Assembly (NCBI GenBank): GCA_009746045.1
Contig: RPFO01000448.1
Coordinates: forward strand, 1,034,565-1,098,564
DNA: 64,000 nucleotides
Direction: 5' to 3'
Source of the DNA: Mesostigma viride
Lineage: Eukaryota; Streptophyta; Mesostigmatophyceae; Mesostigmatales; Mesostigmataceae
Shown here: in pieces, positions 36,170-64,000 of the stretch
Layout: every line of letters starts with the position of its first letter
Numbering within the stretch: position 1 is the first letter of the stretch
The notes under the pieces: generated by a model
What the model saw: only the letters and a program-made list of their open reading frames with translations
Told to the model about the DNA's origin: nothing
The model's database searches: none
Program-made: the position numbers and the translations under genes

Positions 36170-36423
36170 TTGAATGGTGGCTTAACCGTCCTCATACTGT
36201 TGTAGACCCCTTCTTGCATGCTGATGAACTCTTGAATGTCTCTGTGTTAGTGGATAGCGGTGCGGCTAGCTCCTTTGTGAGCGAGGCCCTAGTTAGGCGT
36301 TTAGGACTAGTCCCTACCCCTCACACAAAAACGTCACTGTCCATTATGCTGACGGTCGCACCAGTCATTCCCCGGGTACGGTGTCCCTTCCCCTGGTCAT
36401 ACAAGGACGTACGGTCAACCTGA
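36170..36423 (+). CDS. TE1 aspartic protease (retropepsin), partial frame
   Basis: The active-site motif VLVDSGAASSFVSEAL has its DSG codons at 36253-36261. A frame change in the A5 run near 36328 moves the continuation (SLPLVIQG...DVLLGLDWH, the flap and C-terminal ALLG-like motif) into the RT frame. It cleaves gag-pol in related elements. Either a real single-base loss or a sequencing error explains the break. Confidence 0.8.
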
Positions 36424-38387
36424 CGGCCACTATAGGCCCTATCACTACAGCTGATGTATTACTAGGATTAGATTGGCACCAGGATAATAAGATTACTATT
36501 AATTATGATACTATGGTCATTTGGTTTCCAGATAGCTCTTACTGGGTACCAGAACGTCATTATAGATTAGAAAATTTATCCTTGGTAGATATTACTCCTC
36601 CTACACCTGTTGATCCTCCTGTGAGACCTATACCTGAAGTATTAATGTCCAATGACGAATTGCGATCTGAACTAAAGGAATATGGATACCTATTATGTAT
36701 GTTCCTTCAGTTAGAAGTACAAGAGATACCTATCACTAATAATAGTGTGGATATAGATGTAAACACAGTGGATACAATAGGAGTGGGATTTACTGAAAAT
36801 GAAATAGTAAGATACATGGCTGTGATAGATTCCTCAAAAGTATTTGAAGAAAAGACTCCTTCTTATCCTCCTCCTCGTTCTGTTTTACACCGTGTAGTTA
36901 TCAAGGACGGTGCAGTTCCTACGCACTCTCCGATGTATAGAATGGGCCCTACCGAATTAAAGGAACTAAAACAGATTTTAGTGTCACTATTAGAAGCAGG
37001 ATTGATAGAGCCTAGTAACTCCCCCTACTCCGCTGGTGTCCTGTTAGTTCCTAAGCCAAATGGCAAGTTTCGCCTAGTTACTGATTATAGGAAGTTAAAC
37101 GATATTACTGTGAAGTCTAAATACCCTCTACCTCGTATTGATGATATATTTAATAAGGTTAAAGGTTCTACCTGTTTCACAGTACTAGATTGTGCGGATG
37201 GTTTTTGGCAACTACGTATAGCTCCTGAGGATTGCCACAAAACCGCCTTTGCTACCCCTTTTGGGCATTACCAGTTTAGAGTAGCGGCTATGGGACTCTG
37301 TAACTCTCCTGCCTCTTTCCAAATGTTAATGAATGAAGTGCTTAGACCTGTTATGGGAAATTCTCACCTTCCTCAAGTGTCCTCTGATTTAAAGGATCCT
37401 TCCTTCTCCTCTGTTTCTTTATCTGAGCATGACCGTTCTTGTGCTCAAGCTTACTTAGATGATATCCTTATTTATTCTCCTGATTTTGAAACGCACCTAC
37501 GTGATTTAAAGAAAGTATTAGAAATCATGGCTGAAAATTCTTTATGGGCACGCCGTGCTAAAGTTCGCTCTGGTAGGAGTGTCCCATTTTTAGGGCACGT
37601 TCTGTCAGATGCCGGGGTTGCTACCGACCCGGATAAAACTAAGTCAATTCAGGAATGGCCTACCCCTACCGACGTTAAAGGTGTACGTAGTTTTCTAGGA
37701 ATTGCTTCTTACTATAGGCGTTTTATCCCGCGTTTCGCAACTATAGCAGCCCCTATTAATCATCTATTAAAGAAGGATATCCCCTTTGTTTGGAGTAGTG
37801 AATGTCAGTCGGCTTTTCAGTGTCTAAAATCCCTACTCCTCTCCCCTCCCGTACTCATCCTACCGGATACTACTAAACCCTTTGTTGTAGCTACAGATGC
37901 TAGCAAGGTAGCTATAGGGGGCGTCCTTCTCCAGGATCAGGGTCAGGGCTTACAGCCAATCGAGTATATCTCTAGGACAATGCTTCCTGCGGAGCGTAAC
38001 TATCCCGTACACCAGCAGGAACTATTAGCTGTGGTGTATTGTTGCCACGCGTGGCAGCACTTTCTTAAAGGTGCTCAATTTGATGTTTGTCTGAATGAAC
38101 CCTGCGAGATTGATCCTTATAGATTAGTTATCCAGACGGACCACCGTCCCCTTACCCATCTTCTCTCACAACCCAACCTTACCCCTCGTCAAGCGCGCTG
38201 GATGGAGTTTTTAGCACAGTTTTCCCCTTTTAAACTTCAGTATGTTAAGGGTGTAGATAACATAGTACCAGATGCACTCTCCCGTCGTGCAGATTACTCC
38301 TTTTTCGAGGACCTTGATGTTCTCAATACTACTCTAGTTCCTACTACTATGGGTGTAACCCCGTATGGTGAACTACCTGATGATTAA
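36381..38387 (+). CDS. TE1 reverse transcriptase and RNase H
   Basis: Long intact frame. The end of protease (LLGLDWHQDN) is followed by an RT core with AGLIEPSNSPYSAGVLLVPK, LDCADGFWQLRIAPED (motif A Asp) and AYLDDILIYS (catalytic YLDD, 37449-37478). Next come the thumb-connection motif SFLGIASYYRRFI and RNase H with VATDASKVAIGGVLLQ, QQELLAVVY and TDHRPLTHLL. It ends VPDALSRR and an acidic tail, and is then cut by the 289-bp insertion whose TAAT tail supplies the stop. Codon use is AT-leaning, unlike the GC-rich host exons and the downstream extra ORF. All catalytic motifs look intact. Confidence 0.95.
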   Translation: MSLPLVIQGRTVNLTATIGPITTADVLLGLDWHQDNKITINYDTMVIWFPDSSYWVPERHYRLENLSLVDITPPTPVDPPVRPIPEVLMSNDELRSELKEYGYLLCMFLQLEVQEIPITNNSVDIDVNTVDTIGVGFTENEIVRYMAVIDSSKVFEEKTPSYPPPRSVLHRVVIKDGAVPTHSPMYRMGPTELKELKQILVSLLEAGLIEPSNSPYSAGVLLVPKPNGKFRLVTDYRKLNDITVKSKYPLPRIDDIFNKVKGSTCFTVLDCADGFWQLRIAPEDCHKTAFATPFGHYQFRVAAMGLCNSPASFQMLMNEVLRPVMGNSHLPQVSSDLKDPSFSSVSLSEHDRSCAQAYLDDILIYSPDFETHLRDLKKVLEIMAENSLWARRAKVRSGRSVPFLGHVLSDAGVATDPDKTKSIQEWPTPTDVKGVRSFLGIASYYRRFIPRFATIAAPINHLLKKDIPFVWSSECQSAFQCLKSLLLSPPVLILPDTTKPFVVATDASKVAIGGVLLQDQGQGLQPIEYISRTMLPAERNYPVHQQELLAVVYCCHAWQHFLKGAQFDVCLNEPCEIDPYRLVIQTDHRPLTHLLSQPNLTPRQARWMEFLAQFSPFKLQYVKGVDNIVPDALSRRADYSFFEDLDVLNTTLVPTTMGVTPYGELPDD

Positions 38388-39324: not shown

Positions 39325-41690
39325 CCTAAAGCTGGACTGTTGCAGGCAGCATGTAGACCATGAAAATAGACCACCCACGAAAATTGGGCTCATTCTGAGC
39401 TCAAATGGTGACATGTGACAGCATACATGTGCAGTTTTTCGTCATTTCCCCCCTTTACTTACATGAAACAAATATGAATAGTGGACAAATGAACTCATTT
39501 CAGGCTGGATTGTTGCAGGCAGCATCTAGACCATGAAAATAGACCACCCACGAAAATTGGGCTCATTCTGAGCTCAAATGGTGACATGTGACAGCATACA
39601 TGTGCAGTTTTTCGTCATTTCCCCCCTTTACTTACATGAAACAAATATGAATAGTGGACAAATGAACTCATTTCAGGCTGGATTCTTGCAGGCAGCATCT
39701 AGACCATGAAAATAGACCACCCACAAAAATTGGGCTCATTCTGAGCTCAAATGGTGACATGTGACAGCATACATGTGCAGTTTTTCGTCATTTTCCCCCT
39801 TTTCTTACATGAAACAAATATGAATAGTGAACAAATGAACTCATTTCAGGCTGGATTCTTGCAGGCAGCATGTAGACCATGAAAATAGACCACCCACAAA
39901 AATTGGGCTCATTCTGAGCTCAAATGGTGACATGTGACAGCATACATGTGCAGTTTTTCGTCATTTTCCCCCTTTTCTTACATGAAACAAATATGAATAG
40001 TGGACAAATGAACTCATTTCAGGCTGGATTCTTGCAGGCAGCATCTAGACCATGAAAATAGACCACCCACAAAAATTGGGCTCATTCTGAGCTCAAATGG
40101 TGACATGTGACAGCATACATGTGCAGTTTTTCGTCATTTCCCCCCTTTACTTACATGAAACAAATATGAATAGTGGACTTGTAAATGAACTCATTTCAGG
40201 CTGGATTCTTGCAGGCAGCATCTAGACCATGAAAATAGACCACCCACAAAAATTGGGCTCATTCTGAGCTCAAATGGTGACATGTGACAGCATACATGTG
40301 CAGTTTTTCGTCATTTTCCCCCTTTTCTTACATGAAACAAATATGAATAGTGGACTTGTAAATGAACTCATTTCAGGCTGGATTCTTGCAGGCAGCATTT
40401 AGACCATGAAAATAGACCACCCACAAAAATTGGGCTCATTCTGAGCTCAAATGGTGACATGTGACAGCATACATGTGCAGTTTTTCGTCATTTTCCCCCT
40501 TTTCTTACATGAAACAAATATGAATAGTGGACAAATGAACTCATATCAGGCTGGATTCTTGCAGGCAGCATTTAGACCATGAAAATAGACCACCCACAAA
40601 AATTGGGCTCATTCTGAGCTCAAATGGTGACATGTGACAGCATACATGTGCAGTTTTTCGTCATTTTCCCCCTTTTCTTACATGAAACAAATATGAATAG
40701 TGAACAAATGAACTCATATCAGGCTGGATTCTTGCAGGCAGCATTTATACCATGAAAATAGACCACCCACAAAAATTGGGCTCATTATGAGCTCAAATGG
40801 TGACATGTGACAGCATACATGTGCAGTTTTTCGTCATTTTCCCCCTTTTCTTACATGAAACAAATATGAACAGTGGACAAATGAACTCATTTCAGGCTGG
40901 ATTCTTGCAAGCAGCATCTAGACCATGAAAATAGACCACCCACAAAAATTGGGCTCATTCTGAGCTCAAATGGTGACATGTGACAGCATACATGTGCAGC
41001 TTTTCGTCATTTGCACCGGTTTCTTACATGAAACAAATAGGAATCATGACCAAATGAACTCATATCGAGCTGCCAGGATTCTTGCAAGCAACATTTAAAC
41101 CATAATACTACACCACCTACAAAAATTGGGCTCATTATGAGCTCAAATGGTGACATGTGACAGTATAAATATGCAGTTTTACGCCATTTTCATCGTTTTC
41201 TTACACGAAATAAATAGGAATCATGACCAAATGAGCTCATATCGAGCTGGATTCTTGCAAGCTACATTTAAACCATAATACTAGACCACCTACAAAAATT
41301 GGGCTCATTATGAGCTCAAATGGTGACATGTGACAGTATAAATATGCAACCTTTTGTCATTTGCACCGGTTTCTTACATGAAACAAATAGGAATCATGAA
41401 CCAATGAACTCATATCCAGCTGGATTCTTGCAAGCTACATTTAAACCATAATACTACACCACCTACAAAAATTGGGCTCATTATGAGCTCAAATGGTGAC
41501 ATGTGACAGTATGAATATGCAGTTTTACGCCATTTGCACCGGTTTCTTACATGAAACAAATAGGAATCATGACCAAATGAACTCATATCAAGCTGGATTC
41601 TTGCAAGCAACATTTAAACCATAATACTAGACCACCTACAAAAATTGGGCTCATTCGATCTGAGCTCAAATGGTGACATGTGACAGTATA
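39325..41690 (+). repeat. 173-bp satellite array, left arm (~13.5 copies)
   Basis: Monomers start at gctggattcttgcaggcagc (39331, 39504, 39677 and so on, period 173). Inner copies differ by a few substitutions. The last four (from about 41040) are clearly more diverged, so the array is youngest toward the outer end. Confidence 0.95.
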
Positions 41691-46134: not shown

Positions 46135-47517
46135 ATGTCCCACGTAGCTCCCACAAAAACCAGCATCTTCATTAAAACAATAAGTGGAAGCATACATGTG
46201 ACACTAATTGACATGCCCGGAGGCACGCCGTTCAAGGCCCTTCATGAAGTACGTTGCCCAATCACCCCCGCCCTGGCTTTCCCTTGAAGCCGCACTCCAC
46301 CTTGCTCGTTGTCACAAGTGACCGCCCTGCCGCAAAACGGGAGCCCCCCCACATCGGGAGGCGTGTGCCCGGCGGCTGTGGATGCATGGCCAGGCCCAAA
46401 AAGGCCCAGCGCATTTGCACTGCGATTGCGCACGGCCAGCCTATCATGACCCCTCTCGGGCCCCGAGTCGGTACCGCTATGGCCGTCTCCCCATAGACCC
46501 GGGGTGCTTCGAGAAAAAACGTGGACCTAGCCCAGGCCCCGCCAGCCCGGATGCCCGAGGCCACAGCCCCAGGCACCTGGCTGAACGAGAGTCCGTTCAG
46601 CCAAGACCGCATTCCCCCCCGAGGTTTCTATGCGTGGGGAAAAATTTTCTAGCTTAGGCGCTTTTCCCATCGCCGTCCCCAGCCCCAACCACCCCCCCCT
46701 CGGCGGAAGGCAATTGCAAAGTTTGCTGGCCAGCAGCAATTTCCGAAGAAAAAGCCGCAGGCCGCGGACCGAGACACGGGTCGCCAGTGCCAGCCATCCG
46801 GCTCCAACCCGGGGTGCAAGCATCCCCAGGTACGGAGCACCAGCTCGCGCACTGGGCCGACCAAGCGACAGTTGAGCACCTGTCACGGCATCCGGCCCAC
46901 CAAAGACCCCAAGCTGGGGAAAAGGTGCGGACCGGAGGTAATCATTTTCTTTTCTTTTAGTTAACCGAGCGAGGAACTACGCCTGGCCGGTTAACAACTG
47001 GAAGTCTCACCACTGGCCAAGTGGCCAGTGCAACCAGTGCTTTTGGGATTTTGCTCCGCAGCACCCATAGCTGCGGCTGCCGCCGCAACGACAACGAGCA
47101 AAGAAAGAGGCCGACAAAACCAGCCAGAGCGGCTTTTAGTCGCAAAACCTCCCTTATCCCCAGCTAACTGACGTCATTAAACCCTTATGTTTAGTGGATG
47201 CTAGTAAGACGCTAACCGTACAAACCGGGGGTAGAATATCCCGAATCTGCACGGCTAGTATTAAATAATGCGTAGGTTGTTCTTTTCAGGGGCACTGCAC
47301 CTCACGCCCCGTTCCGCCCGGGTATAATCAACCCAAGCGCGGAACGCACATTTTATTTAATTCATTTTTCAACCATGCACTATATTGCATCTACTAATCA
47401 CAAAAGCTCTAGCCAAACAGCTACGAGTAAACACTACGACCTATAAGCCGCTCATCCAGCGGCCTCTTGTTCCCGCATTCACGTATAGAAGAAACTCCGT
47501 TCAAAGAACCCCGATTC

Positions 47518-48362
47518 CTTGCTAACAGGTCGGTCTCGGCAATTCATCTTGCATTCACTGGAATTCACTCATCGAAGCCCCGAGACTGCCCGTCCAGTCT
47601 GAACATACGAAAAGGACTTGAATTTCCTTGCTAACAGGTCGGTCTCGGCAATTCATCTTGCATTCACTGGAATTCACTCATCGAAGCCCCGAGACTGCCC
47701 GTCCAGTCTGAACATACGAAAAGGACTTGAATTTCCTTGCTAACAGGTCGGTCTCGGCAATTCATCTTGCATTCACTGGAATTCACTCATCGAAGCCCCG
47801 AGACTGCCCGTCCAGTCTGAACATACGAAAAGGACTTGAATTTCCTTGCTAACAGGTCGGTCTCGGCAATTCATCTTGCATTCACTGGAATTCACTCATC
47901 GAAGCCCCGAGACTGCCCGTCCAGTCTGAACATACGAAAAGGACTTGAATTTCCTTGCTAACAGGTCGGTCTCGGCAATTCATCTTGCATTCACTGGAAT
48001 TCACTCATCGAAGCCCCGAGACTGCCCGTCCAGTCTGAACATACGAAAAGGACTTGAATTTCCTTGCTAACAGGTCGGTCTCGGCAATTCATCTTGCATT
48101 CACTGGAATTCACTCATCGAAGCCCCGAGACTGCCCGTCCAGTCTGAACATACGAAAAGGACTTGAATTTCCTTGCTAACAGGTCGGTCTCGGCAATTCA
48201 TCTTGCATTCACTGGAATTCACTCATCGAAGCCCCGAGACTGCCCGTCCAGTCTGAACATACGAAAAGGACGAATTTCCTTGCTAACAGGTCGGTCTCGG
48301 CAATTCATCTTGCATTCACTGGAATTCATTCATCGAAGACCCGAGACTGCCCGTCCAGTCTG
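47518..48362 (+). repeat. 109-bp tandem array (8 copies)
   Basis: Period 109 (gctaacaggtcggtctcggc at 47521, 47630, 47739 and so on), nearly identical copies, the last with a 2-bp loss. About one and a half further units lie at 45365-45556 and a fragment at 42985-43031. There are no unique spacers between units, so it is a satellite and not a CRISPR array. Confidence 0.95.
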
Positions 48363-48559
48363 AACTTCATACTACCGTTGTACGAAATTCAGACTGCACG
48401 AACCTCGAGGATTGTCAATGAATGCCCATGAATTTCATTTGGTCGCACAAAAATGTTTTATTCAAGAGAACAGTGGCAATGGCATCAAACTGCATTGTTT
48501 TCCTTTCATTTGTCACCTTTTGAGCTGTAAACAGTCTATTTTGATGGTCTACATGCTGC

Positions 48560-49425
48560 TTACAAGTTTCCAGCCTGATCTGAGTTCATTTGTTCAATAT
48601 TCATATTTGTTTCATGTAAGATAACCGAGAAAATGACGAAAAACTGCACATGTATGCTGTCACGTGTCACCATTTGAGCTCAGAATGAGCCCAATTTTTG
48701 TGGGTGGTCTATTTTTATGGTCTAGATGCTGCCTGCAAGAATCCAGCCTGAAATGAGTTCATTTGTTCACTGTTCATATTTGTTTCATGTAAGAAAAGGG
48801 GGAAAATGACGAAAAACTGCACATGTATGCTGTCACATGTCACCATTTGAGCTCAGAATGAGCCCAATTTTTGTGGGTGGTCTATTTTCATGGTCTAGAT
48901 GCTGCCTGCAAGAACCCAGCCTGAAATGAGTTCATTTGTTCACTGTTCATATTTGTTTCATGTAAGATAACCGAGAAAATGACGAAAAACTGCACATGTA
49001 TGCTGTCACATGTCACCATTTGAGCTCAGAATGAGCCCAATTTTTGTGGGTGGTCTATTTTCATGGTCTAGATGCTGCCTGCAAGAATCCAGCCTGAAAT
49101 GAGTTCATTTGTTCACTATTCATATTTGTTTCATGTAAGAAAAGGGGGAAAATGACGAAAAACTGCACATGTATGCGGTCAAATGTCACCATTTGAGCTC
49201 AGAATGAGCCCAATTTTTGTGGGTGGTCTATTTTCATGGTCTAGATGCTGCCTGCAAGAACCCAGCCTGATATGAGTTCATTTGTCCACTGTTCATATTT
49301 GTTTCATGTAAGAAAAGGGGGAAAATGACGAAAAACTGCACATGTATGCTGTCACATGTCACCATTTGAGCTCAGAATGAGCCCAATTTTTGTGGGTGGT
49401 CTATTTTCATGGTCTGAAGGCTGGA
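48560..49425 (-). repeat. 173-bp satellite array, right arm (~5 copies, inverted)
   Basis: Reverse complement of the left-arm monomer (for example gctgcctgcaagaatccagc and tgagcccaatttttgtgggt). The copies alternate between two variants (aagaaaagggggaaaa and aagataaccgagaaaa), which suggests a higher-order dimer absent from the left arm. Confidence 0.93.
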
Positions 49426-49520
49426 TGACCCCTGCTTTATTGACAAATATAAGGATTTAATCACATGTGGAAAAATTGAGTAAAATTTATGAAATTGAGC
49501 AAACACTTATGAATCCCCTC

Positions 49521-50478
49521 TATGTTAGAACCTGTCAATCTTGCCAGGAGATGAAACCCAACAATGTAGGACAGATAGCAGAGCCTAGGACCTTACCTGA
49601 TCCCATCATGCCGTGGGACTCCATTATGATGGATTTTGTAGGACCTTTTAGGAAGAATGATAGAGGTAACGCCCAGATCCTTGTTTTCGTAGATCGTTTT
49701 ACTCGTATGTGTCATCTCGTGCCGTGTCCCTTAGAACTCACCGCACGCGATTGCGCACGCCTATACCTTAATAACGTATATAGATATCATGGTTTGAGTA
49801 GGCAGTTTATTAGTGATAAAGATAAGTTATTTACTTCTGATTTTTGGCAGCAGTTCTTCGCTGCTATCGGTACCAAGGTCACCCTCGGTACTGCCTACCA
49901 CTCCTCCTCGTCTCATTTAGTAGAACGTTTGAATAGGGTAGTGGAAGAAGCTCTGCGGCACTATGTGAATGGCTCTGGGAGTGATTGGGAGGATTATCTA
50001 TGTCTGGTAGAGTTCTCCCTTAACAACTGCCCTCAGGCTGCGCATGGTTATACGCCCTTCTTCCTAGATACTGGTAGACAACCTCTTACCCCTACCTCTC
50101 TCTTAGCTAGTCCTTTAAGGGACAAGGATGATGTGTCCCGGGATACTGTAGAAGGTGTGCAGGCGTTATTAGATAAGATGAAGAATGCACACGACAACGC
50201 TATTGCAGGGTACCATAGGGCGCAGGCCAAGTACCTTAATTGCTAGGTTGCGTGCCTCATTAGATAGAAGAGCACCTGAGATAGAAATAGGAGATTTAGT
50301 CTTAGTAGAAGGCCCCCGTGTTGGCCGATTCGCTCACAAGTTCGAAGCTGAACTGAAAGTGAAACTTAGGCCCGCCTTCTTAGGACCCTTCCGTGTGTTG
50401 TCTAGAGTAGGTAATTTCCTGTATGAGATAGATATTCCTACCTCTTCAGTGGCAGACCCACTCGCGCACCTTTCATAG
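49521..50478 (+). CDS. TE1 integrase catalytic core and C-terminal part (after insertion)
   Basis: Continues the HHCC domain with CQSCQEMK. The catalytic triad follows: MDFVGP (Asp codon 49632-49634), FISDKDKLF and HLVERLNRVVEEAL (Glu). The core is intact to about 50240, where a one-base change moves the C-terminal SH3-like part (EIEIGDLVLVEGPRVGRF, FLGPFRVLSRVGNFLYEI) into another frame that stops at 50476-50478. The enzyme inserts the cDNA into the genome. This copy is split by the 10-kb element and frameshifted. Confidence 0.9.
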
Positions 50479-53789: not shown

Positions 53790-56196
53790 CTACTAGCTTG
53801 GTTGGCCCGGGGACTCGCGTACGTCCAAAAGCCTGAAAAACTGACTTTAATGAATATCAGTTCCAATGCACGCGGGAACCATCTAGTGATGATTGAGTAC
53901 CATAAATATGATGTTTGGACATTCATGCCACCACTTGTTGGGGGTACTACCCCCAACCACGCACCGGTGGCGAGCTAAAAATAGAAAAAGACGCTATTTA
54001 TGAGATATTTTGCCCAAGACAAACCACTTATCCAAATGACCTGCCCATACATTTCTGCAAAGTTCCCCCACTTTTTTAAAAGCTGGGCTATTTACATGGC
54101 CAAAATGGTCACATTTGTTTGAGTTATTTTTTCCCGCAAAATGGGTACTTTTTTTAGCCAAAAAAATTAATCAAATCATTAACACATCAGATTGGGTAAT
54201 CAATACATTTTATATTCCACTGATTGGGGGGAAACACAACCCCAAAGTTTGAGCTCATTCTGACAAGTGTAGCTCAAGTTATTGATTTTCCTGTGATGCC
54301 ACCTGGGTAGACGCTAAAAGAGAATTGAGCTAGTGCTGAGCCAAAATGACATCTGTTTTTAACCCTAGACACCCATTAAAACATGCCCACTTTGATCACG
54401 GAGTGTGAGGAGGATGTCCGGAGCGACATACGCCCCACCCCTCCATCGGCACAGCCAGCCTTGTGAGTCTACCCTTAACAACAAGGCTGGTAGGACGACA
54501 CGCCTGAGCAGCATATGTCATGCCTATCTCAGGCTAATAATATGTGATTTTGTGCCAACAACCAAGTTGTTCCACCCAACAACACATTAAAAACCCTCTT
54601 CCAAAATGCCCAACAAGCCGGACATGTGGAGGACCACACACGCAGTATATAAAGAGAAAATAAGCTGACTTTTTATCCAGCCAACCTGTGGCTAGCTGCT
54701 CTGGTTAGCATGACAAAGGCTATCATTTACTCAGTGGGAAAGATGAAGAGACCATATTTGGAACAACCTACCTGATGCATGTGCCACCAAAGCATGTCAC
54801 GGACGCGAGCTATGTCATCCGGGCGGCGCCCACTATGCACAAGACCGGTGACGTGCGCAAGGAATTTGTTTTCTACGCATTTTCGACAAAGGCTAGTGAC
54901 CGGGGGGGGACACTAGCACTTGCAGCATAAGAGCGGACGAAAGTGTACGTGCATGCGCGCCGGGCCAGGCACAGCTGGGCGCGCAGCACTGACTTGAGCG
55001 GACGGCAGCACAAGTGCGCAGCGTCGAGAGGATCATACGCGTGTTAGTGGACAGCTGGAGCTGAAGCTGGACTGCTGGACTTCAACAGCGCCGAGGCTAT
55101 TGACAGGCCAGGTGTCTTTGTGGTGTAGAATAGCGGGTCAACGTTATGAGGACTGGACAGAAAATGAAAAAGGACAATTTGCGGTGCGGAGCCAGATCGC
55201 TGGAATGAATGCGAAATCGCTGGCAGCCCTACAAAGGGATTTCTTCTAGAAAGGAACGATTAGACGCAATGTTTGCTGGGCCACTCACACGCAAGGTGTG
55301 AGCGTGCAGATTGTCTGAAGGATATTATGCTTCGACCTTGCTGGACGTGACTCAATGTCGGACATTCCCAGGGACAGAAATGCCGGAGCCTCTAGGAGAT
55401 GAGATCGGCAACAGGGTAGCAATTTAGATTTGTCGGGATGCCTTCCTGCTTTTGTTGGCATGTGTGGTAGAAAGCCAGGACGGCAACTGGAATGCGGTTT
55501 CTATTTGCATGGTTCAGGCAGCAAGATAGTTTTGGCATTCCTGGCTGGACTGACAAGTGTGGCGTGTGTCATGCGTGTGGCATGCATGACGAATGGTTTG
55601 GTTCATAGTCGAAGAGGACTCTCACGCAGCGTGTAGTCTCTTCGAGTCTCTCGTTAGTGGCCTTCGTGTTTCTCCCTTTCCTTGGGAGCAAGGCCGGTAG
55701 CATGTCATGGAGCGCTGCCTAACTGCGGGCTCGTGAGCATGGAGTGCATCGATATTGAGACTATCAACGTGTTGTAATTGTATTAACTTTCTCAATAAAT
55801 TCCGCATGTGCGGCTTCATCATCAGACTGTGCAAAGTGTGTGTTGTGAAAGCATTGTTCTATAGCAGGGGAGGCAAAAGCACCCTCTTGCACCATCATAT
55901 TGTCGCAATTAGAGTAGTTGGAGCGTCTAGCTAACGCCCCAGCAAGGATATTCAAACGCGGCACGCGACGGTACACAAGGGGATCAAGAAGGTGGTCATC
56001 AGGCACGAGGGACAGTTCCTTGTCCTCGGCTGAGAGCCCTCTTTTCATTACTCGAAGAGACTAGCTCCATCTGCAAAGGAACATTTTCATTTCAGCAAAG
56101 AGAGACGGTGTGCAGTTTTCTGGGGAAGACTAGCACACATAGTGGCCTGATCAACCATTAAGTCTTTCAGATTAGACCGTTGCTACTTGGTAGTGG
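53790..56196. other. Region between TE1 and TE2, little recognised
   Basis: AT-rich, repeat-poor sequence. 54709-54930 (+) is open for 73 codons (YHLLSGKDEETIF, YLMHVPPKHVTDASYVI) after a stop and without an upstream ATG. 55764-56048 (-) is a 94-codon ORF starting MKRGLSAEDKELS. Neither is recognised. Inverted 14-mers tagtctcttcgagt (55631-55644) and actcgaagagacta (56050-56063) enclose the latter, without an evident target duplication. The 5' LTR of TE2 should lie here but cannot be identified without its partner. Confidence 0.4.
55764..56048 (-). CDS. Unrecognised 94-residue ORF
   Basis: Starts MKRGLSAEDKELS and ends NTITTR, with LDPLVYRRVPRLNILAGALA and FHNTHFAQSDDEAAHAEF in between. Composition is protein-like and mixed, and there is no repeat inside. 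No family was recognised. It lies between the inverted 14-mers, so it may belong to a small mobile element or be a chance ORF within the TE2 leader or LTR. Confidence 0.25.
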   Translation of the reverse strand: MKRGLSAEDKELSLVPDDHLLDPLVYRRVPRLNILAGALARRSNYSNCDNMMVQEGAFASPAIEQCFHNTHFAQSDDEAAHAEFIEKVNTITTR

Positions 56197-56322
56197 TTGT
56201 GGCAGTTTATGTCATATCACACTAGGTCGGTCACAGCGTTTTTGGCAAGCCACGCAGGCTGTGCCAACACGGGCGTCGACACCGACGGGCAGGAGCTCTC
56301 CAGGGTCGATACCACCATCAAC

Positions 56323-59300
56323 ATGTCAGGAACTGACCCCACAGCATCAGGCAGTGGTGGGTCAGCGCCGGCAGCTACGGGCGGTCAAGCAACTGACCCG
56401 CCCAGCGGTCGTCTCGGCACTAGTGCGGACACCGCTTTGTTAGGTAATGGAGCGCCTTCCCTTTCTTCGGCAGGGGACGGTGGTGCTCTTACCCAAGTGC
56501 TGCGCCTGCTGCAAGAGCAAGCGGCAGAGCTGGCGGCACTCCGAGCTCAGCAAGCGACGCAGTTATCGCAACAGGCGACGCTTGTTGAAGAAACTGTGCG
56601 ACTTGCTTTGGAGCGCGCGGAATCTACGGCTGAAGCGAGGCGTGCTACGGAGCGCGCTGAGCAACGGCGGCAGGCGGAGGCAACCACGGAAGCTGCACGC
56701 GCCTGCCAAGCTGCGGCCCAACGCGACGCCGAGGCCAGGCAGGCTGCCGACGAGGAGGCCGCTGCCGAGGAAGCGCGGCGACATGAGGCGCTGCGTGACC
56801 AACGCGGACACTTCGACGAAGAGCGCAGTGGGACAGGTCCACTACGCAACGTTGAGCCCAGTCAGCCACGCGTCGGACCAAGCGGTCAACGGCGGGGCGA
56901 CGGGGAAATGGCGCAGGATGACGAGCTGCAGCCGAACGTCGGTCGGGTAGGCACCCGGTCGACTGCCGACGCATCTTATACGCTGGGGGGGAACCTACGG
57001 GCACCCAACCAAGGCACGTTATCGTGGCGCGGCGGGTATGGTGCAGCCCCCAGGGGGGGAGCATCAGGTGGCTTGTTTAGCACAGGTCGGCCACCCATGA
57101 CGGCGGCAGCAACGCCGTTGGGTGGCACCGCAGGGCGGCCCAGGCTTGGCGGCACTCGGTCAGACTTCGGCTGGGGCCAAGTCGATCGGGAGGTAGCCAG
57201 CATACCATGGGGTGAGGGCGACGACGTCCAGCGACCCCACCGCATGCCGTACGGCGTGCATGGCGAATCCACTCGTGTGCCATCGCTGCCCAAGGTGGAG
57301 CTTCGCGAGAAGTTCACCTCAGCAGGCACGGGTGCGACTTTAGAGGAAGCCTATGAGCTCTTCCGAGCTCATTGTAACACTTATCGTTATGCCTCGGGGT
57401 ATCCTCTTCGCCATGAGATGGTGATGGATTTTATTCACCTTTTTTTCCATGACCTGACCAAGAAGAAGGTCCAGGTTTTGGTCCAGCATTACCGAGCGCT
57501 CGTGGACCGATGTCATCGCACGGACATATGGTTTGCGCTCACGGACATGGGCACACCGGATCTCGACTCGATCATCTTCGATGTCGACCCGGCAGAGCAG
57601 CTGTGGCAGCAACTGCGGCTGGAGTACCCAGTTGAGCACGTCAAGGCCATCGCGGAATGGAATGGAGCGTTCACCGTCGCCGAGGGTGAGGATCCGGCTT
57701 TCTCCCTTGACCGGCTTCTCGCGTTTGCGGGCAAAGTGCCTGATTATACGCAGACCAAGGCTTGCCGGTTATGGCGGAGTGCAGTGCCCCTGCTGGCCAT
57801 CGATCTTCCGGAGCCGCCCGGTGGGGAGTGGACTTTGGTGACTCTCTGTGCAGCATTCAAGCGGCTGCTCAGGAAGCGTGCGGAAGGCGAGAAGGGTATC
57901 TCGTCTGAGCTGGCTGAGATGCGCAAGAAGATGGCTGAGATGGAGAAGGCCATCGCGGTCAAGGGTGGCCAGCGGCTGCCTGGTGCGGGGCGCGGTGAAT
58001 ATGTCGGCACTCAGGGTGGTGGCAACGCCGGTCACGGGGGCAGCGGCGGTGGCGGTCAGGGTGGCAGCGGCGGTGGCGGTCAGGGTGGCAGTGGCGGTGT
58101 CAGTCGTGGTGGCGGCGGCAGTGGCTACGGTGGTCGGGGTCGCGGTGGTGGTCGAGGCGGAGGCGGTCGTCCGCCGTCATCGGATGGGACTCAGGAGGCG
58201 CAGGGCGTGCAAGGCGCGCTGGGCGCACCCACCCCGTCACGCGGTAAATGTTACCTTTGCGACAAGGATGGGCACCTTAGTCGCGAGTGTCCAAGCCGCT
58301 GCACGAAGCCGCATGGGGCAGACACGAAGTGGCACCTGATGAACAAGTGTCCAGCCGCGGGCATCAAGACGGTCCACTTCGCCGAGATGGCGGGCAAGAC
58401 CGACTCGATGGAAGCCCAGGTGGCTGCCATCAAGCATGGTGAGGAGGCGACGGCGCCCCCCAACCAATTCGCGACGGTGTACCGGGAGGACCCATTCTGG
58501 GCGCCCATGCCGGGTGACGTCGAGATCAACGCTGCGGAGGCTACCAAAGGCAAGCAGGCACGCAGCCCGCTTTCTTTTCAGCAGGCACCCATGTTGCCTG
58601 CCGGGCAGTTGCCCGCGTCCTTTTCCATGCCGCTGGCTGGGGTGCAATCTGCTTTTGAGCATGCGAACCCTGCTGGGCTGGAGCAGCGTAGGCGATTGGC
58701 GCCTGTGTACCCAATGCCGTTCATTGTGGACGTACCCATGTTTTCAGCACGGCAGGTGGTCGACACCTTCGGGCAGAAGGGGGTTGAGTGGCTGGGGTCG
58801 GTTGTGTCCGAGATCCAGTTGTTCGCAGATGGGCATGATGTGCGCACCTTGCGCAATTCTGAGTCCGTCACCTACGGGCGTCAGCCGGTAGAAGCCGCAG
58901 TGCCCGTGGTGCAAGCGGGAGTGGTCAGCACAAGTAGCCAGCAGCGCACTAGTGCAGTTCCCCAGGTTCCCACGGTGGTTCCATACCCCAATGGTGAGCC
59001 GTCCATAGCGTTCCAAGCAGTTGGAGCCTGTGGAGATGTATGGAGCGACATGGTGACATGTCCGTTGGTTGGCGCAGTCAAGCTTGATAGCGGTGCTCAG
59101 CCGCTAGTCATCAGCACAGACTTGGCCACCATGCTGAACCTGACCTACGAGAACGGTGGCTTAGTAGAAAGCCCCGTGTCTGTGTCAGGTTGGCAGGGTC
59201 CGGCTAGTAAGCCGTACGCTATGACGGCGGTTAAAGTCAACGTGATTTTCAATCCGTTGCGCGCCTCTAGCATGACCACCGTGTCCGCGTATGCGCTGGT

Positions 59301-59628
59301 GGTCAACAAGTGTGGATATTCCGCACTACTCGGGGTGGATGTCCTTGCTCGCGCCATGGTTCAGGTGGACTATAGGGCGGAGGAGGCATCTTACATCCCT
59401 GATTGGGATGGGGCTGGCCTGAAGCGGGCCAGTGTGCCGGTCTCATGCTTCAGTTCTTCAGCCGGGGCTGCACGCCTCAACCCTTCGCGGCTGCGGGCGT
59501 GGTGGAGGTCAGCATGGTGGAGGTACGGGCGGCGGGCTCATCGGCGTGGGACAAGCATCGGACGGTGCTGCCTCAGCCAACGGCGAGCATTGCCAAGATG
59601 CGCACGCAGTGGTCGCTGGATGCTGTGA
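56323..59628 (+). CDS. TE2 gag-protease polyprotein
   Basis: Starts MSGTDPTASGSGG (the open frame extends upstream to 56197 without ATG). Residues ~60-190 are a long Ala/Glu/Arg-rich coiled coil (RRATERAEQRRQAEATTEAA). A disordered Gly/Arg stretch follows, then a capsid-like region (LEEAYELFRAHCNTYRYASG, LTKKKVQVLVQHYRAL) and a basic helix. A Gly-rich linker leads to knuckle CYLCDKDGHLSREC (58249-58290) and a second Cys/His cluster (CTKPHGADTKWHLMNKC). Retropepsin shows VKLDSGAQPLVIST (DSG at 59086-59094) and ALLGVDVLARA. The true frame leaves near 59470 for the methyltransferase frame; the tail to 59628 is out-of-frame arginine-rich noise. Confidence 0.9.
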   Translation: MSGTDPTASGSGGSAPAATGGQATDPPSGRLGTSADTALLGNGAPSLSSAGDGGALTQVLRLLQEQAAELAALRAQQATQLSQQATLVEETVRLALERAESTAEARRATERAEQRRQAEATTEAARACQAAAQRDAEARQAADEEAAAEEARRHEALRDQRGHFDEERSGTGPLRNVEPSQPRVGPSGQRRGDGEMAQDDELQPNVGRVGTRSTADASYTLGGNLRAPNQGTLSWRGGYGAAPRGGASGGLFSTGRPPMTAAATPLGGTAGRPRLGGTRSDFGWGQVDREVASIPWGEGDDVQRPHRMPYGVHGESTRVPSLPKVELREKFTSAGTGATLEEAYELFRAHCNTYRYASGYPLRHEMVMDFIHLFFHDLTKKKVQVLVQHYRALVDRCHRTDIWFALTDMGTPDLDSIIFDVDPAEQLWQQLRLEYPVEHVKAIAEWNGAFTVAEGEDPAFSLDRLLAFAGKVPDYTQTKACRLWRSAVPLLAIDLPEPPGGEWTLVTLCAAFKRLLRKRAEGEKGISSELAEMRKKMAEMEKAIAVKGGQRLPGAGRGEYVGTQGGGNAGHGGSGGGGQGGSGGGGQGGSGGVSRGGGGSGYGGRGRGGGRGGGGRPPSSDGTQEAQGVQGALGAPTPSRGKCYLCDKDGHLSRECPSRCTKPHGADTKWHLMNKCPAAGIKTVHFAEMAGKTDSMEAQVAAIKHGEEATAPPNQFATVYREDPFWAPMPGDVEINAAEATKGKQARSPLSFQQAPMLPAGQLPASFSMPLAGVQSAFEHANPAGLEQRRRLAPVYPMPFIVDVPMFSARQVVDTFGQKGVEWLGSVVSEIQLFADGHDVRTLRNSESVTYGRQPVEAAVPVVQAGVVSTSSQQRTSAVPQVPTVVPYPNGEPSIAFQAVGACGDVWSDMVTCPLVGAVKLDSGAQPLVISTDLATMLNLTYENGGLVESPVSVSGWQGPASKPYAMTAVKVNVIFNPLRASSMTTVSAYALVVNKCGYSALLGVDVLARAMVQVDYRAEEASYIPDWDGAGLKRASVPVSCFSSSAGAARLNPSRLRAWWRSAWWRYGRRAHRRGTSIGRCCLSQRRALPRCARSGRWML

Positions 59629-60866
59629 CGTCCACGCGGCAGCTGGCTATGCGCAAGCGGGTGACTGAAGCCGTCATCACCATTCCTCAGATGGCCAGCC
59701 ATGGCCTCACTTTGGTGCAACCGGGTGTCTCGGAGGCCCAAGGTAATTTTTCTGCTGCAATCTTACCGCAGGCCCCTGATTTTGCCAAGGGTGCGGTAGT
59801 GTTGGAACTGTTTGCGGGGATCGGAGGGGGCATTGCAGGCTTTTTGGCCGCAGGCGGCGTGTGCCGTAAACTCATCGCGGTAGAGCCATCGCACAAGGCG
59901 CGTCAGGTGTACTTCAGTCACTGTGGCGTGTTGTCGCGAGAGTATCCCGCGCAGTTTCCGCCATCAGCATGGCGTGACCCGTTTGGGGAATGTCCTCAAG
60001 ATATCCGAGCCATCGGTGAGGTGCAGGTGCAGCAGTTGTTGCGCAGGCATCATGCCATCGACTTGGTAATTGCGGGTTGGGAGTGCCAGGGCCTGAGCCA
60101 GGCAGGGCAAGGGCGGGGGCTAGCCGATCCGCGTAGCGCGCTGTTCTGGGAACTGTTGCGTGTGGTGGGACTGTTGCAGTCGCGTCAGCCCCATCCGCCT
60201 GCGTATCTGTTTGAGAACGTTGTGGCGGGTGACAGCCCACATCAGGCGGTGCGGGAGGACTGGGCTACAATCGTGGCACTCCTGGGGGAGCCCATCGTGT
60301 GTGACAACGCAGGGCTGGGTGGGCTCACGCATCGTTTGCGTGCCTATTGGACCAACGTGGCGTGTGCGACCGGTGTGCAGGCGGTCTTGGGGCCGTCGCA
60401 AGGCAGCATCCGAGTGTGTCTGCGGAGGTAGCATTGCCTTCCCACCTAGTCACGCAGAAGGTGGATAGCGAGGATCGCCCACCGTATGCACGCGTCAACC
60501 GGGTCGGGAGCCCCATGTGTGCACTGCCGACCCTGGTCAGTTACCAAGGGTCGACAGCATACCGTGATCGGGGTAAGGGTCTCGTTTGGGACACTACCAC
60601 CGGTCTGTTGGTGCAGCCACCCGCAGAATTTCGTGAGGCCAGCATGGGTTTTCATGTCGGGGCCTCGGCGCTGCCGGGCGTGCTCGAGAGTGAGCGCTGG
60701 TCTTTGATAGGCCAGGCTATGTCGGTGTTGCAGGTCGGGTATGTGCTGCTTGCATCGGTTGCCGTGCGCCAGTCTGGGGGGGCGTCCCCAGCCAATCCGC
60801 CTCAGCAGGTTGAGGCGCGCGCAGCCAAACTGAAGCGCCCTGCAGCGACGGGGACTTCATCAGCAT
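59403..60866 (+). CDS. TE2 C5-cytosine DNA methyltransferase domain
   Basis: Motif I VLELFAGIGGGIAGF (about 59799-59843, SAM binding), motif IV VIAGWECQGLSQAG (catalytic Cys codon 60084-60086), motif VI YLFENV (60204-60221), and motif VIII region CDNAGLGGLTHRLRAYWTN. A frame step near 60395 leads to the C-terminal motifs IX/X (ALPTLVSYQGSTAY, GKGLVWD, FREASMGFHVGAS, SERWSLIGQAMSVLQ). The H-R-x-R-x-W-x-N form of motif VIII is more like Dnmt3/DRM-type enzymes than Dnmt1 type. The usual PCQ is ECQ here, with Cys kept. It lies between protease and RT in the same polyprotein order, so it would be made with pol. It could methylate the element or host DNA; target is unknown. One frame step lies inside the domain. 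Confidence 0.92.
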
Positions 60867-63437
60867 GGGGGTGGCGTCTGCGACAGGTGTGGACTATCAT
60901 TCTCATGACCGCCCTGCTGACCAGCACCGTGCTGGCCGGCGAGCCCACGCTGCATCGGGTAATACACCGGCGGCACGCGAGGCTCCGGCGGTGGGTGTCA
61001 CACCAGGTGTGGCAGCCTTTTCCTTGTTCCACGACGATGCGGCTAGGGCGCCGCATCTTGAGGCACATGCGGTAGCTGTGGGTGATCCCGCGGATACGCA
61101 CCCCTGGGCTATTGGCGAACACCTTTCTGATGCGCAGCGCTCAGCCATGCTAAAGTGGCTAGGCACTGCAAGGGGGGCCTTCGCTTTCACAAGTGATGAA
61201 CTGGGGTGTTTCAATGGTGGGACCATGCGTGTTCCATTGGACACTGACACTCCTTTGTTCCGACGCCAGCATCGCCTGAGTCAGGCCGAGTTGGATTTTG
61301 TAGCCGAGCAATGCAAGGAGTTAGAGGATGCCGGTATCATCAGGCAATCTTCCTCCAGCTATGCTGCTGCCGTTGTCGTTGCGCCCAAGAAGGACGCTAT
61401 CACCGGGGCATGGACGGGTATGCGCATGGCCACCGATCTGCGGTTGCTGAATGCACACACACCCGTGGACCGTTACCCCATGCCACGTGTGGATGATGTC
61501 CTGGATAAGATATCTCCTCATGTGAAGTTTGTGTCCTCGCTGGACCTGCGTAGCGGCTTTCATCAGATCGCAGTTGCGCCGGAGGATCAGCGGAAGCTTG
61601 CATTCTGGGGGGCGGCAATTTGTATGAGTGGGTGCGCATGCCCTTTGGGCACCGCAACGCTAGTGCTGTTTTCCAACGAGCTATGGACAAAGTGCTTGCA
61701 GGTCTTCCTTTCGCCGCTTGTTACATTGATGATGTAATCGTCTTTAGCGCGACATTTGAGGAGCACCTGGCGCACTTGGAGCAGGTTCGCTTGGCTCTCG
61801 AGGAGCATAATATGCGGCTGCACCCTGAGAAGTGCAAGTTCGCCCAGCGGACCCTCTCATTCCTTGGTCATCAGATTGTGCCGGGTGGCCGGACGCCTGA
61901 TGCCGCCAAGGTCGAATCCATTGCGCAGGCCGCCGTACCCACGGATGTCTCAGGGGTGCGGGCGTATTTGGGTTTGGCTGGCTATTACCGAGGTTACATT
62001 GAGAACTTCAGCAGCAAGGTGAAGCCCTTGACCGAGTTACTCAAGAAGGGGTGCGTGTGGGCGTGGGGTCCCGCACAGCAACGCGCCATCGAGACAATCA
62101 AGCAGGAGCTCACGTCGGCACCGATTCTGCGCGCCCCTGACTATGCTTTGCCATTTGTGTTATATACCGACTGGTCCAAGGTAGGACTGGGTGCGGTCTT
62201 GGCGCAAAAGGATGGTGATGGGCGCGAGCACGTTATTGCTTATGCTAGTCGCAGCAACAACCCAGCGGAGAGCCGGTATTCTTCCTATGAGGGGGAGGCA
62301 CTGGCTGTGGTGTGGGCCATCAAGCACTTTCGCCCGTATTTATTTGGGCGCGTGTTTACTCTGGTGACAGACCACCAGCCGCTTCAGTGGCTAATGACCA
62401 ACACCAACCTGACGGGTAAGCTCGCCCGATGGGCCATGATTATCCAGGAGTACCACATGACCATTGTGCATCGGGCCGGCAAGGACCATGTCAACGCCGA
62501 TGTGCTATCCCGATACGCCATGCCTACCACTGTTGACCACACTGGAGCCCGGGCCATGGGTGCCGAGGGCTCGTCTGGTTCTGTGGTCTTTGTGAACGCT
62601 GCTGGGTATGCGGCCGACGATGAGGAGGAGGCGTGGTGGCGCAGTGTCGAGTACTCTGTGGCGGACTTCGGCATCAGCGACGACCCGGTGCGGCCGTCGC
62701 CATTCACGCCATCCAAAGCTGTGTGCGCTATGGAAGAGGGTAGGTCTCTGTCCTTTGACATTGATCCTTCTCTGCAGCAGCTGATCGCTGTGCAGGCTCT
62801 CTTAGCGCGTAGCTCTCTTGCTGATTGCTACACCGCTGATATCTGGCTAGATGGTCGAGTGTTGGAGCAAGTGCAGGGTGCTGTCTTGACTCCTACTCCA
62901 GTCGATTGGACTCCTGCTCAGAAGGCGACGGAGTTGAACAGGGTGCAGCACAGGGCTGCAACCTATGGTTGGGAAGATGGGGTTTTGTACAAGCTGTTGG
63001 GCAAGCGTAGGGTGGTCGTCCCACCGCCTGACAAGCGCGTTGCTATAGTGCAGGCGTACCACGAGCGGTATGGTCACTTGGGTGGCAATCGCACGCTCAG
63101 CCTCGTACGGACCAGCTATTGGTGGAATAACATGCGACACACGGTGGCCCAGGTAGTGGCCAGCTGTGTCCCGTGTGCTCGAACCAAGGCTAACTTTAGC
63201 GCAGATCATGGTGCCAAGGAGCTGATGTCGCTTCCCATCAAGGGCTTGTTTTATCGCTGGCACGTCGATCTGTGCGGGCCGTTTCAGGAGAGCCCTGACG
63301 GCAACCTCTATGTCATGGTATGCGTGGAGAGCTTTAGCAAATGGGTTGAGTTGATCCCCATTGCTGACAAGCATGCCGCTACCACAGCGAAGCATTTTGC
63401 GGACATCATACCAGGTTTGGGGCTCCCGCGGAGGTAG
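60866..63437 (+). CDS. TE2 reverse transcriptase, RNase H and integrase N-terminal part
   Basis: Segment 1 (about 60866-61612) holds the RT start: LEDAGIIRQSSSSYAAAVVV, MATDLRLLNAHTPVDRYP and SSLDLRSGFHQIAVAPED (motif A Asp). A frame step in a G6 run at 61607-61612 leads to segment 2 (to 63437): YEWVRMPFGHRNASAVFQ, ACYIDDVIVFSATF (catalytic YIDD), GLAGYYRGYIENF, RNase H VLYTDWSKVGLGAVLAQ, EGEALAVVWAI and TDHQPLQWLM. Integrase HHCC follows (HERYGHLGGNRTL...CVPCARTK) with the first catalytic Asp in WHVDLCGPF. Catalytic motifs are intact. Confidence 0.93.
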
Positions 63438-64000
63438 TCACGGACCAGGGTGGTGAGTTCAGGGGTGAGTTCCAGGAGTTGCTGGATGGATGTCTTATTG
63501 ATCACCGTCGCACTTCTCGGGAGCATCCTCAGGCCAATGGTTTGGCTGAGAGATTGGTGCAGACCGTCAAGCAGGCGCTGCGCAAGTGGAGCCTGCAGGT
63601 GCCGGAGTCGGCCAGGTGGGATCGCGAGTTGGCATGGATTGCCATGGGTTATCGCATGTCTCCCCAGGAGTCTCTCGCTACCTTCTCCCCGTATTTCCTT
63701 CTGTTCGGGCGTAATCCTCTTTTGCCTACGGAGGCACAGGTTGCGCACCCCGAACCCATGGCCTTCGACAACGCTCAGCAATTTTTGGTTGAGGTGCTGG
63801 CCAGGGCAGAGACTTTTAAGAAGGTCATGCCCATCGCGATGAACAACTTGTTCATTGCTCAGCACAGGGACTCCCTGCGTTACGCTCAGCGCCGGGGGGG
63901 CGCATACATGGCTCGCCAGCTGCGGTTTAGGCCAGGGCAGTATGTTTTCCTGCGCACTCAGCTGAAGCACACTTTGGATGTGGAGGCGGGGCCCACCATT
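63416..64000 (+). CDS. TE2 integrase catalytic core end and C-terminal part (runs off window)
   Basis: After a one-base step near 63413 the frame continues FGAPAEVVTDQGGEFRGEF (second Asp) and HPQANGLAERLVQTVKQAL (Glu), completing a DDE triad. The GYRMSPQESLATFSPYFLLF segment follows and then a C-terminal domain start (RFRPGQYVFLRT). It is open to 64000. A chromodomain, if present, is beyond the window. Confidence 0.9.

Follow-up and report, generated by a model that had tools for sequence, protein, structure and literature searches.

A Ty3/Gypsy retrotransposon with a Dnmt3-class cytosine methyltransferase and DIRS-like repeats in Mesostigma viride

Introduction

The closest described relative in kind of the element reported here is KnitGypsy-Dnmt3 of Klebsormidium nitens (de Mendoza et al. 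2018; PMC5890265). According to the accessible text of that paper, it has the domain set of a long terminal repeat (LTR) Gypsy element, a Dnmt3-class domain in Pol that is under purifying selection, and DIRS-like repeats. We analysed a stretch of 64,000 nucleotides (nt) from Mesostigma viride, a streptophyte green alga and thus a relative of land plants, called the window below (GenBank assembly GCA_009746045.1, contig RPFO01000448.1, positions 1,034,565 to 1,098,564 of the forward strand). The sequence from window position 54,795 to about 65,939, which lies past the window end, is almost certainly a Ty3/Gypsy retrotransposon carrying a Dnmt3-class cytosine methyltransferase.

The 2018 paper gives the DIRS layout as A-coding region-B-A-B (PMC5890265). 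It also describes two dinoflagellate retroelements with a cytosine methyltransferase, SymbioDIRS-Dnmt3, whose Dnmt3 domain is in Pol, and SymbioLINE-Dnmt (PMC5890265). In yeast, SymbioDIRS enzymes carry out de novo methylation at CpG, and the same authors had already proposed methylation of complementary DNA (cDNA) for DIRS elements (PMC5890265). The M. viride element differs from both: DIRS elements have a tyrosine recombinase and LINE elements have no LTRs, whereas the M. viride element has a DDE integrase and 4-bp target duplications. It is an unusual addition to the small known group of methyltransferase-carrying elements. A question that has stood since the 2018 paper is why a parasite would carry the enzyme by which hosts silence parasites. 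The question becomes testable in M. viride, because the family is abundant, its copies are nearly identical, and two diverged families occur in one sequenced unicellular alga.

Structure and copies of the element

A Pfam scan of the window copy and of an open copy on contig C1391 (L027/L028) confirmed the order CCHC zinc knuckle, protease, methyltransferase, reverse transcriptase (RT), ribonuclease H (RNase H), and integrase. Within it, protease, RT, RNase H, and DDE integrase follow one another as in Ty3/Gypsy elements. All of these share a frame in the C1391 copy, where the E values are 0.0012 for CCHC, which falls narrowly short of the cut-off, 0.071 for the weak protease, 4.7e-11 for the methyltransferase, 2.5e-27 for RT, 1.6e-38 for RNase H, 5.9e-17 for H2C2, and 1.4e-11 for rve; a PHD finger (2.6e-9) follows in that frame. 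The window copy has five frame switches from the protease to the window end, one of them inside the methyltransferase. Its PHD region, just beyond the window end, is identical to that of C1391. The retropepsin is weak in the window copy and clear in the relative P0008 (PF13650 E=2.9e-6). The zinc knuckle was the sole Pfam match in gag of the window copy. Gag lies in an overlapping upstream frame in C1391; in the window copy and C623 it shares the frame of the downstream part.

A 342-residue piece of the window copy was searched against its own genome, and all 118 scored of 649 candidates were 96-100% identical to it. Matches ended at residue 331 in 83 of the 118 and reached residue 342, past the frame switch of the window copy, in the other 35. 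An open frame of equal length, 2074 amino acids (aa), is present in 20 of the 118 copies. We aligned 29 copies, namely the best-scoring loci of the genome search and 9 further fetched copies. Differences across 1502 columns were confined to 8 two-state sites and 8 gap columns. The two copies of the terminal repeat A described below, A1 and A2, are 98.3-99.7% identical within a copy (8 of the 10 fetched copies have both). Therefore, this family, family A, multiplied recently. One copy (C58:51,684-52,610 and L037) lies beside a stretch that is open in three frames over more than 1,500 codons and looks low-complexity or tandem.

The same genome holds a second family, family B, represented by the M. 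viride gene model P0001, with at least 197 matches (96 of 564 candidates scored). Two adjacent stretches of P0001 match this genome at 97% and 99% identity. Among the matches listed, family B pieces are 66-99% identical to it, most of them 84-99%; for family A pieces the identity is 61-63% within the methyltransferase and 43% in the part that precedes it. The family B copy C1837 has its protease in one frame, the methyltransferase and RT in the next, and a PHD finger (7.6e-9). The left end of family B was not found within the stretch fetched. Other EukProt gene models of M. viride, P0007 (100% over 79% of the query region), P0009, and P0011, span pieces of these elements and are not named as such.

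The methyltransferases of families A and B share 64.7% protein identity. Their identities at codon positions 1, 2, and 3 are 0.735, 0.764, and 0.39, and those of RT-RNase H are 0.801, 0.86, and 0.414. These codon positions indicate protein-level constraint on the methyltransferase and RT-RNase H alike.

The methyltransferase domain

The window piece 59,403-60,431 (frame 0) matched PF00145 at 48.1 bits (E=1.4e-12; cut-off 22). It also matched TIGR00675 dcm at E=6.3e-12, with 45.8 bits, below the cut-off of 100.65 for that model. Read by eye, the motifs of a C5-cytosine DNA methyltransferase follow in order: I (LELFAGIGGG, ~59,802), IV (GWECQG, ~60,075), VI (FENV, ~60,210), VIII (HRLRAYW, ~60,330), IX (CALPTLVSYQ, ~60,518), and X (LIGQAMS, ~60,704). 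We take these motif names, I to X, to be the customary ones. The window copy changes frame near 60,39x, so that motifs I-VIII are read in a different frame from IX-X, and the piece 60,393-60,772 alone gave no methyltransferase match in Pfam or PDB. All motifs from I to X are in one frame in C1391, and copies open across the whole domain exist.

The initial annotation of this stretch placed methyltransferase motifs in line between retropepsin and RT. The domain and its place are confirmed, but the line is broken by the frame switch between motifs VIII and IX of the window copy. It also named precedents for such an element, and these exist in KnitGypsy-Dnmt3 and the dinoflagellate elements (PMC5890265). 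A host gene interrupted by unrelated elements, which would have undone that annotation, is ruled out because the block repeats with the element in its own genome. Its description of the domain as Dnmt3/DRM-like agrees with the comparisons that follow.

A four-sequence profile compared with solved chains gave DNMT3A/3B at the top (E=1.1e-16, 64 bits; 57 sequences listed), followed by DRM (42 bits), HhaI (40), HaeIII (34), and DNMT2 (28). We then examined two trees. The first had 25 rows, hand-picked from 46 protein ids, the fetched loci, and 3 PDB chains. Six rows of one clade, to which the M. viride families belong, lay on one side of a branch (support 100/99) and joined DNMT3A, two DRMs, and P0014 (100/100). 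The second was enlarged to 39 rows by L124 and by 13 of the remaining 147 viral/bacterial-search loci. Seven clade rows grouped at 92/98, and their grouping with DNMT3A, DRM, and P0014 had 92/89. The domain is thus nearer to DNMT3/DRM than to the other C5 methyltransferases in a comparison that is without DNMT1, CMT, and DNMT5 rows. By these relationships the enzyme is classed as a Dnmt3-class cytosine methyltransferase, for which de novo activity is predicted only.

The methyltransferase could have come from a viral or bacterial donor, because P0014, on an 18-kb contig, sits in the same group. We rejected a prokaryotic or phage enzyme as the nearest kin: the viral and bacterial loci listed (the best 80 of 185, plus 68) match parts of the domain at 23-46% identity. 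When viral contigs were scanned with just the window piece, no relative turned up.

Repeats, insertion ends, and the joints between them

A Blast comparison of upstream with downstream sequence revealed repeats in the order A-coding-B-A-B, where A is 1.14-1.26 kb long and B is 143 bp in most copies. B was absent before A in all 18 left ends read (9 + 9). The insertion ends are TGTC...GACA (left TGTCACGG, right GCGACA). Target duplications of 4 bp flank 12 of the 14 copies with both ends (7/8 by eye and 5/6 in a further set), among them AGCA in the window, CCAG in C1429, TAGT in C1468, CATG in C1391, CCCT in C1413, CTGG in C1563, and AACC in C224. C224 consists of A-coding-B only. The further set comprised 20 copies; 14 of these are without one or both ends for the duplication test, and 6 have no readable A2|B2 joint. 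The right end of C623 is altered, and C58 has no A1.

Identical LTRs are therefore not present at the two insertion ends, and the split repeats are those of DIRS elements. However, DIRS elements have a tyrosine recombinase, no integrase, and no target duplication, and the M. viride element has an rve integrase and the 4-bp duplications. Of the 8 copies that have a B1|A2 border, 7 share the same sequence there, and C623 is off by a few bases. The sequence GACGCGACAGCTGTCACGGACGC occurs 237 times in the genome, and its backward control occurs 0 times.

In 9/9 copies with A1, the 14-15 nt immediately following it match, as an exact reverse complement, a stretch that lies at A position 831-840. 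In shuffled A1 controls, the longest complementary match was 11 nt and the mean was ~7. A transfer RNA primer site was rejected, because no TGG occurs in the first 40 nt after A1. Tf1-type self-primed Ty3/Gypsy elements have an RNA stretch complementary to a site directly after the LTR. By analogy, the complementarity in the M. viride element fits self-priming of the Tf1 kind, although the insertion ends of the M. viride element, unlike those of the Tf1 type, are not LTR tips. A purine tract, CGAGGGGGGGAATC, abuts B1 on its 5' side in 9/9 copies, just after the pol stop. Because the presumed primer site follows A1 and the purine tract precedes B1, they would define an LTR that begins with B and ends with A (B+A).

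With this LTR order, the A2|B2 joint would be the joint of two LTR tips. Among the 22 copies in which this joint could be read, 16 have it exact (CTTT or CATT, then AATCATGGG). The six altered joints have an extra G, C for A, a loss of 1 nt, a loss of 3 nt, ~90 nt of filler, and an A2 that is cut short. The 22 joints are from 8 copies and 14 of the 20 in the further set; C488 and C887, both exact, share their right flank and may be one event. A palindrome, GACA-GC-TGTC, lies at the B|A border. Its core, CGACAGCTGTCACGG, recurs as a 15-base match in the distant relative L124, ~0.4 kb after pol. The palindrome GACAGCTGTC occurred 0 times in 1,316,477 bases of the other viral/bacterial-search loci. 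Since ~1 is expected there at even base frequencies, the weight rests on the 15-base match and its place in L124.

From the repeat layout, we suggest that the insertions are probably circular permutations, opened from a circle. The element RNA would prime itself just 3' of A1, and ordinary reverse transcription would make a linear DNA with the LTR order B+A (B-A-coding-B-A). The ends of this DNA would be joined into a circle. The integrase would then open the circle at the GACA-GC-TGTC of the B|A border and insert it. A two-LTR circle would give A-coding-B-A-B, and a one-LTR circle would give A-coding-B, as in C224. Reopening at the palindrome would leave CA/TG ends, which DDE integrases prefer, and a fresh, variable A2|B2 joint. 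This analysis gives a concrete account, open to checking, of how an element with a DDE integrase could come to have DIRS-like repeats, for which the accessible text of the KnitGypsy-Dnmt3 paper offers no explanation (PMC5890265).

Alternatively, reverse transcription itself might make A-coding-B-A-B if the template were switched at the end of A and synthesis continued at B, with no circle being opened. Such a switch would likewise yield a fresh, variable A2|B2 joint per copy. However, the 16 exact joints are precisely two LTR tips as set by the primer site and the purine tract, the ~90-nt filler is of the kind that end joining gives, and the palindrome at the ends is common to L124. We consider the template switch doubtful and favor insertion from an opened circle.

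Head-to-tail arrays are suggested by pairs of B|A borders that are exactly 9,450 bp apart on C111 and C133. Such pairs fit circles or unequal recombination.

Distant relatives and the capture of the methyltransferase

L124 is a contig in the cyanobacterial bin AVDCRST_MAG81 ("Synechococcales"). Its element is cut at the left end. Gag, protease, and methyltransferase occupy one frame, which meets UAG followed by CAATCA, and RT, RNase H, integrase, and PHD finger then continue in the same frame. The context UAG-CARYYA is one of stop read-through. Because UAG and CAATCA fit it, the L124 methyltransferase probably belongs to the abundant Gag product. Because L124 is a retroelement, we read the contig as probably a eukaryotic contaminant of the bin, perhaps from a soil alga. 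Its identity to family A is 44% in the methyltransferase, 53% in RT-RNase H, 49% in the integrase, 51% in the PHD finger, and 31% in the protease. For comparison, TE1, the other Gypsy RT in the window, is 34% identical to the family A RT. L124 alone among the viral/bacterial-search loci listed matches nearly the whole methyltransferase domain (43%, residues 26-354).

Other members of the clade were less complete. P0008 has gag and protease joined to the methyltransferase, and P0010 has a protease-like stretch before it, seen by eye only. In the partial sequences P0002 and P0013, no retroelement neighbor was seen. The EukProt entry P0012 (159 aa), labelled as the dinoflagellate Prorocentrum lima, matches the final part of the family A methyltransferase at 98% identity and extends into the linker behind it; this entry is either a data-set cross-contamination or a very recent transfer.

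The order protease, methyltransferase, RT, integrase, and PHD finger is common to three diverged families (A, B, and L124). This shared order points to one old capture of a methyltransferase that stayed with the element. It weakens the proposal in the initial annotation that the M. viride element defines another acquisition, and so does the likeness to KnitGypsy-Dnmt3. That likeness is drawn from the published description: both elements have a Dnmt3 domain in a Gypsy Pol and DIRS-like repeats. They differ in host, and "PHD" is not found in the main text of the KnitGypsy-Dnmt3 paper (PMC5890265).

It is unlikely, though not strongly so, that the two elements go back to separate captures. Our protein searches returned no match named as K. 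nitens, and EukProt entries of M. viride and P. lima did appear. However, those searches were limited by length and shared words, and P0002, P0008, P0010, or P0013 could be from K. nitens or its kin. Moreover, both elements are Gypsy elements with Dnmt3 and DIRS-like repeats. One old capture seems the likelier reading.

The glutamate of motif IV

Motif IV of the window copy reads ECQ instead of PCQ, a point absent from the initial annotation. ECQ is present in families A and B, P0002, P0010, and P0013, which are 5 of the 7 clade rows, and PCQ is present in P0008 and L124. All 30 other rows of the 39-row tree that are readable at motif IV have Pro before the catalytic Cys; L044 and L127 were excluded, as their reading frames missed motif IV (17% and 22% filled). 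Because ECQ is common to these five, we judge from the alignment that the Glu is of long standing in the clade rather than a defect of decaying copies. P0008 and L124 are sisters (100/97), and the other branches within the clade are weak (82/73 and 82/79). A loss of the Glu in P0008/L124 looks, by eye on this weakly supported clade tree, like the shorter account. Most of a clade has thus kept a change in a motif that ranks among the best conserved of DNA methyltransferases.

This distribution of Glu and Pro could mean that the captured domain no longer methylates, the change from Pro to Glu having removed catalysis, and that it is kept as a nucleic-acid- or S-adenosylmethionine (SAM)-binding part of the polyprotein. 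However, families A and B retain the SAM loop, the catalytic Cys, and the EN of motif VI. Their third codon positions have drifted apart, whereas the first two are conserved, and P0008 and L124 have an ordinary PCQ. We regard loss of catalysis as improbable and prefer an enzyme that is still active.

Proposed role of the enzyme and of the PHD finger

In our model, the enzyme would be released from the polyprotein in the particle and would methylate the newly made DNA of the element, most likely at CpG, acting in the particle or in the nucleus. The circle and the new insertion would thereby carry the mark of the host. We favor self-methylation as the main role of the enzyme because it is translated with the polyprotein, it is constrained, and the related SymbioDIRS enzymes methylate CpG in yeast; our confidence in this falls a little short of even.

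The solved fingers nearest to the PHD finger are BAZ2B (1.7e-15), Lid, BAZ2A, CHD4, WSTF, and ATXR5, with UHRF1 lower (best 60 of 99). Several of these fingers bind unmethylated H3K4. The PHD finger may accordingly steer integration to chromatin without H3K4 methylation, a suggestion that we make tentatively. More tentative still is the proposal for the whole clade, in which the integrase would open circularized cDNA at the inner palindrome and not at the LTR tips, the Dnmt3 enzyme with its old Glu would mark the circle as self, and the PHD finger would pick the landing place. Taken together, the identity of the element, insertion from a circle, self-methylation, and PHD-guided landing form the best overall explanation, to which we give a probability of roughly 0.6.

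The enzyme is unlikely to serve the host, with insertions methylating themselves and their neighbors, falling silent, and hence being tolerated at high copy number: this would suit the great many near-identical copies and the CHH and CHG methylation published for silent KnitGypsy copies (PMC5890265), but the recent multiplication is hardly a silent state, and CpG is not depleted in the element (observed/expected 0.84-0.89, against 0.75 in the whole window), although the copies are too young for this ratio to be informative. The same reservation applies to the idea in the initial annotation that, by writing its own methylation, such an element could keep itself silent but undamaged.

Several points count against our overall explanation. 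C998 and C488, 2 of the 14 copies with both ends, have no target duplication. The layout could come from the template switch considered above, and A-coding-B could arise by recombination between B1 and B2. When the single window sequence was used in place of the profile, the 17 hits included no DNMT3A/3B, and the best solved chain was of DRM type (7.7e-5). Because Glu replaces the Pro of all 30 comparison rows, the activity could be altered or abolished. Because 35 of the 118 copies match through the frame switch of the window copy, a broken version of the methyltransferase would seem to have spread as well, unless there is a shared assembly error. Synonymous divergence (dS) between families A and B is saturated (3.09 in the methyltransferase and not computable for RT), so the data give no exact ratio of nonsynonymous to synonymous divergence. 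Of the two right halves scanned for the PHD finger, that of C623 gave no match, and C1391 has the finger. Finally, the KnitGypsy domain gave no methylation in yeast, in an assay that its authors judged inconclusive (PMC5890265).

Within the literature searched, which lacks most subscription papers, "KnitGypsy" and related terms occur only in PMC5890265. The accessible text of the M. viride genome paper (PMC6947507) mentions no such element. Elements of this kind are already known; the host and clade, the Glu in motif IV, the PHD finger, and the explanation of the repeats appear to be new within the literature searched. CrREM1 of Chlamydomonas is a Gypsy element that has a PHD finger in a separate, reverse-oriented frame and has no methyltransferase; our literature search did not find it.

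Features of the element and other sequence in the window

Table 1. Features of the window copy, in window coordinates
Feature	Position	Strand	Evidence or remark
Target-site duplication AGCA, left copy	54791..54794	+	Flanks read by eye; right copy past the window, after B2
Repeat A1, left end TGTCACGG, no B before A1	54795..56049	+	99.7% identical to A2; end set by A2|B2 joint and primer site
TAGTCTCTTCGAGT, reverse complement of primer-site region, presumed self-primer near RNA 5' end	55634..55647	+	Sequence match
Presumed primer-binding site ACTCGAAGAGACTA, immediately 3' of A1	56050..56063	+	Complementarity to A1 stretch
gag, within open frame 56,197-59,628	56323..58242	+	Open reading frame; start codon chosen by us
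CCHC zinc knuckle	58243..58296	+	PF00098 E=1.5e-4
Retropepsin-like protease (LDSGAQ)	59080..59340	+	PF13650 E=0.049, under cut-off; 47% identity to P0001 across 175 positions
C5-cytosine methyltransferase, motifs I, IV (GWECQG), VI, VIII, frame 0	59796..60392	+	PF00145 E=1.4e-12
Methyltransferase continued, motifs IX and X, other frame in window copy	60393..60772	+	In a single frame with the rest in copy L027
Reverse transcriptase, two frames in window copy	61384..61877	+	PF00078 E=3.6e-4 and 4.7e-19
RNase H	62064..62453	+	PF17917 E=2.8e-39
DDE integrase (H2C2 zinc finger and rve), frame switch near 63,42x	63021..64000	+	PF17921 E=1.7e-17, PF00665 E=8.5e-4; runs past window
PHD finger, window equivalent	~64,160-64,294	+	Past window end
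Repeats B1, A2, B2	reaching ~65,939	+	Past window end

The window holds further sequence outside the element. TE1, the second Gypsy element, has an RT part at 36,381-38,387 and an rve integrase part at 49,467-50,246, ~11 kb apart with satellite arrays between them; that the two parts belong to one element is a guess. A 173-bp satellite forms two arrays in opposite orientation (~95% complementary) at 39,331-41,690 and 48,534-49,415. The block that they frame contains a 109-bp satellite at 47,515-48,365. Exons of a SNRNP200/Brr2-type helicase gene lie at 4,873-13,505, and between them a 36-bp minisatellite at 12,681-13,172 is open in several frames.

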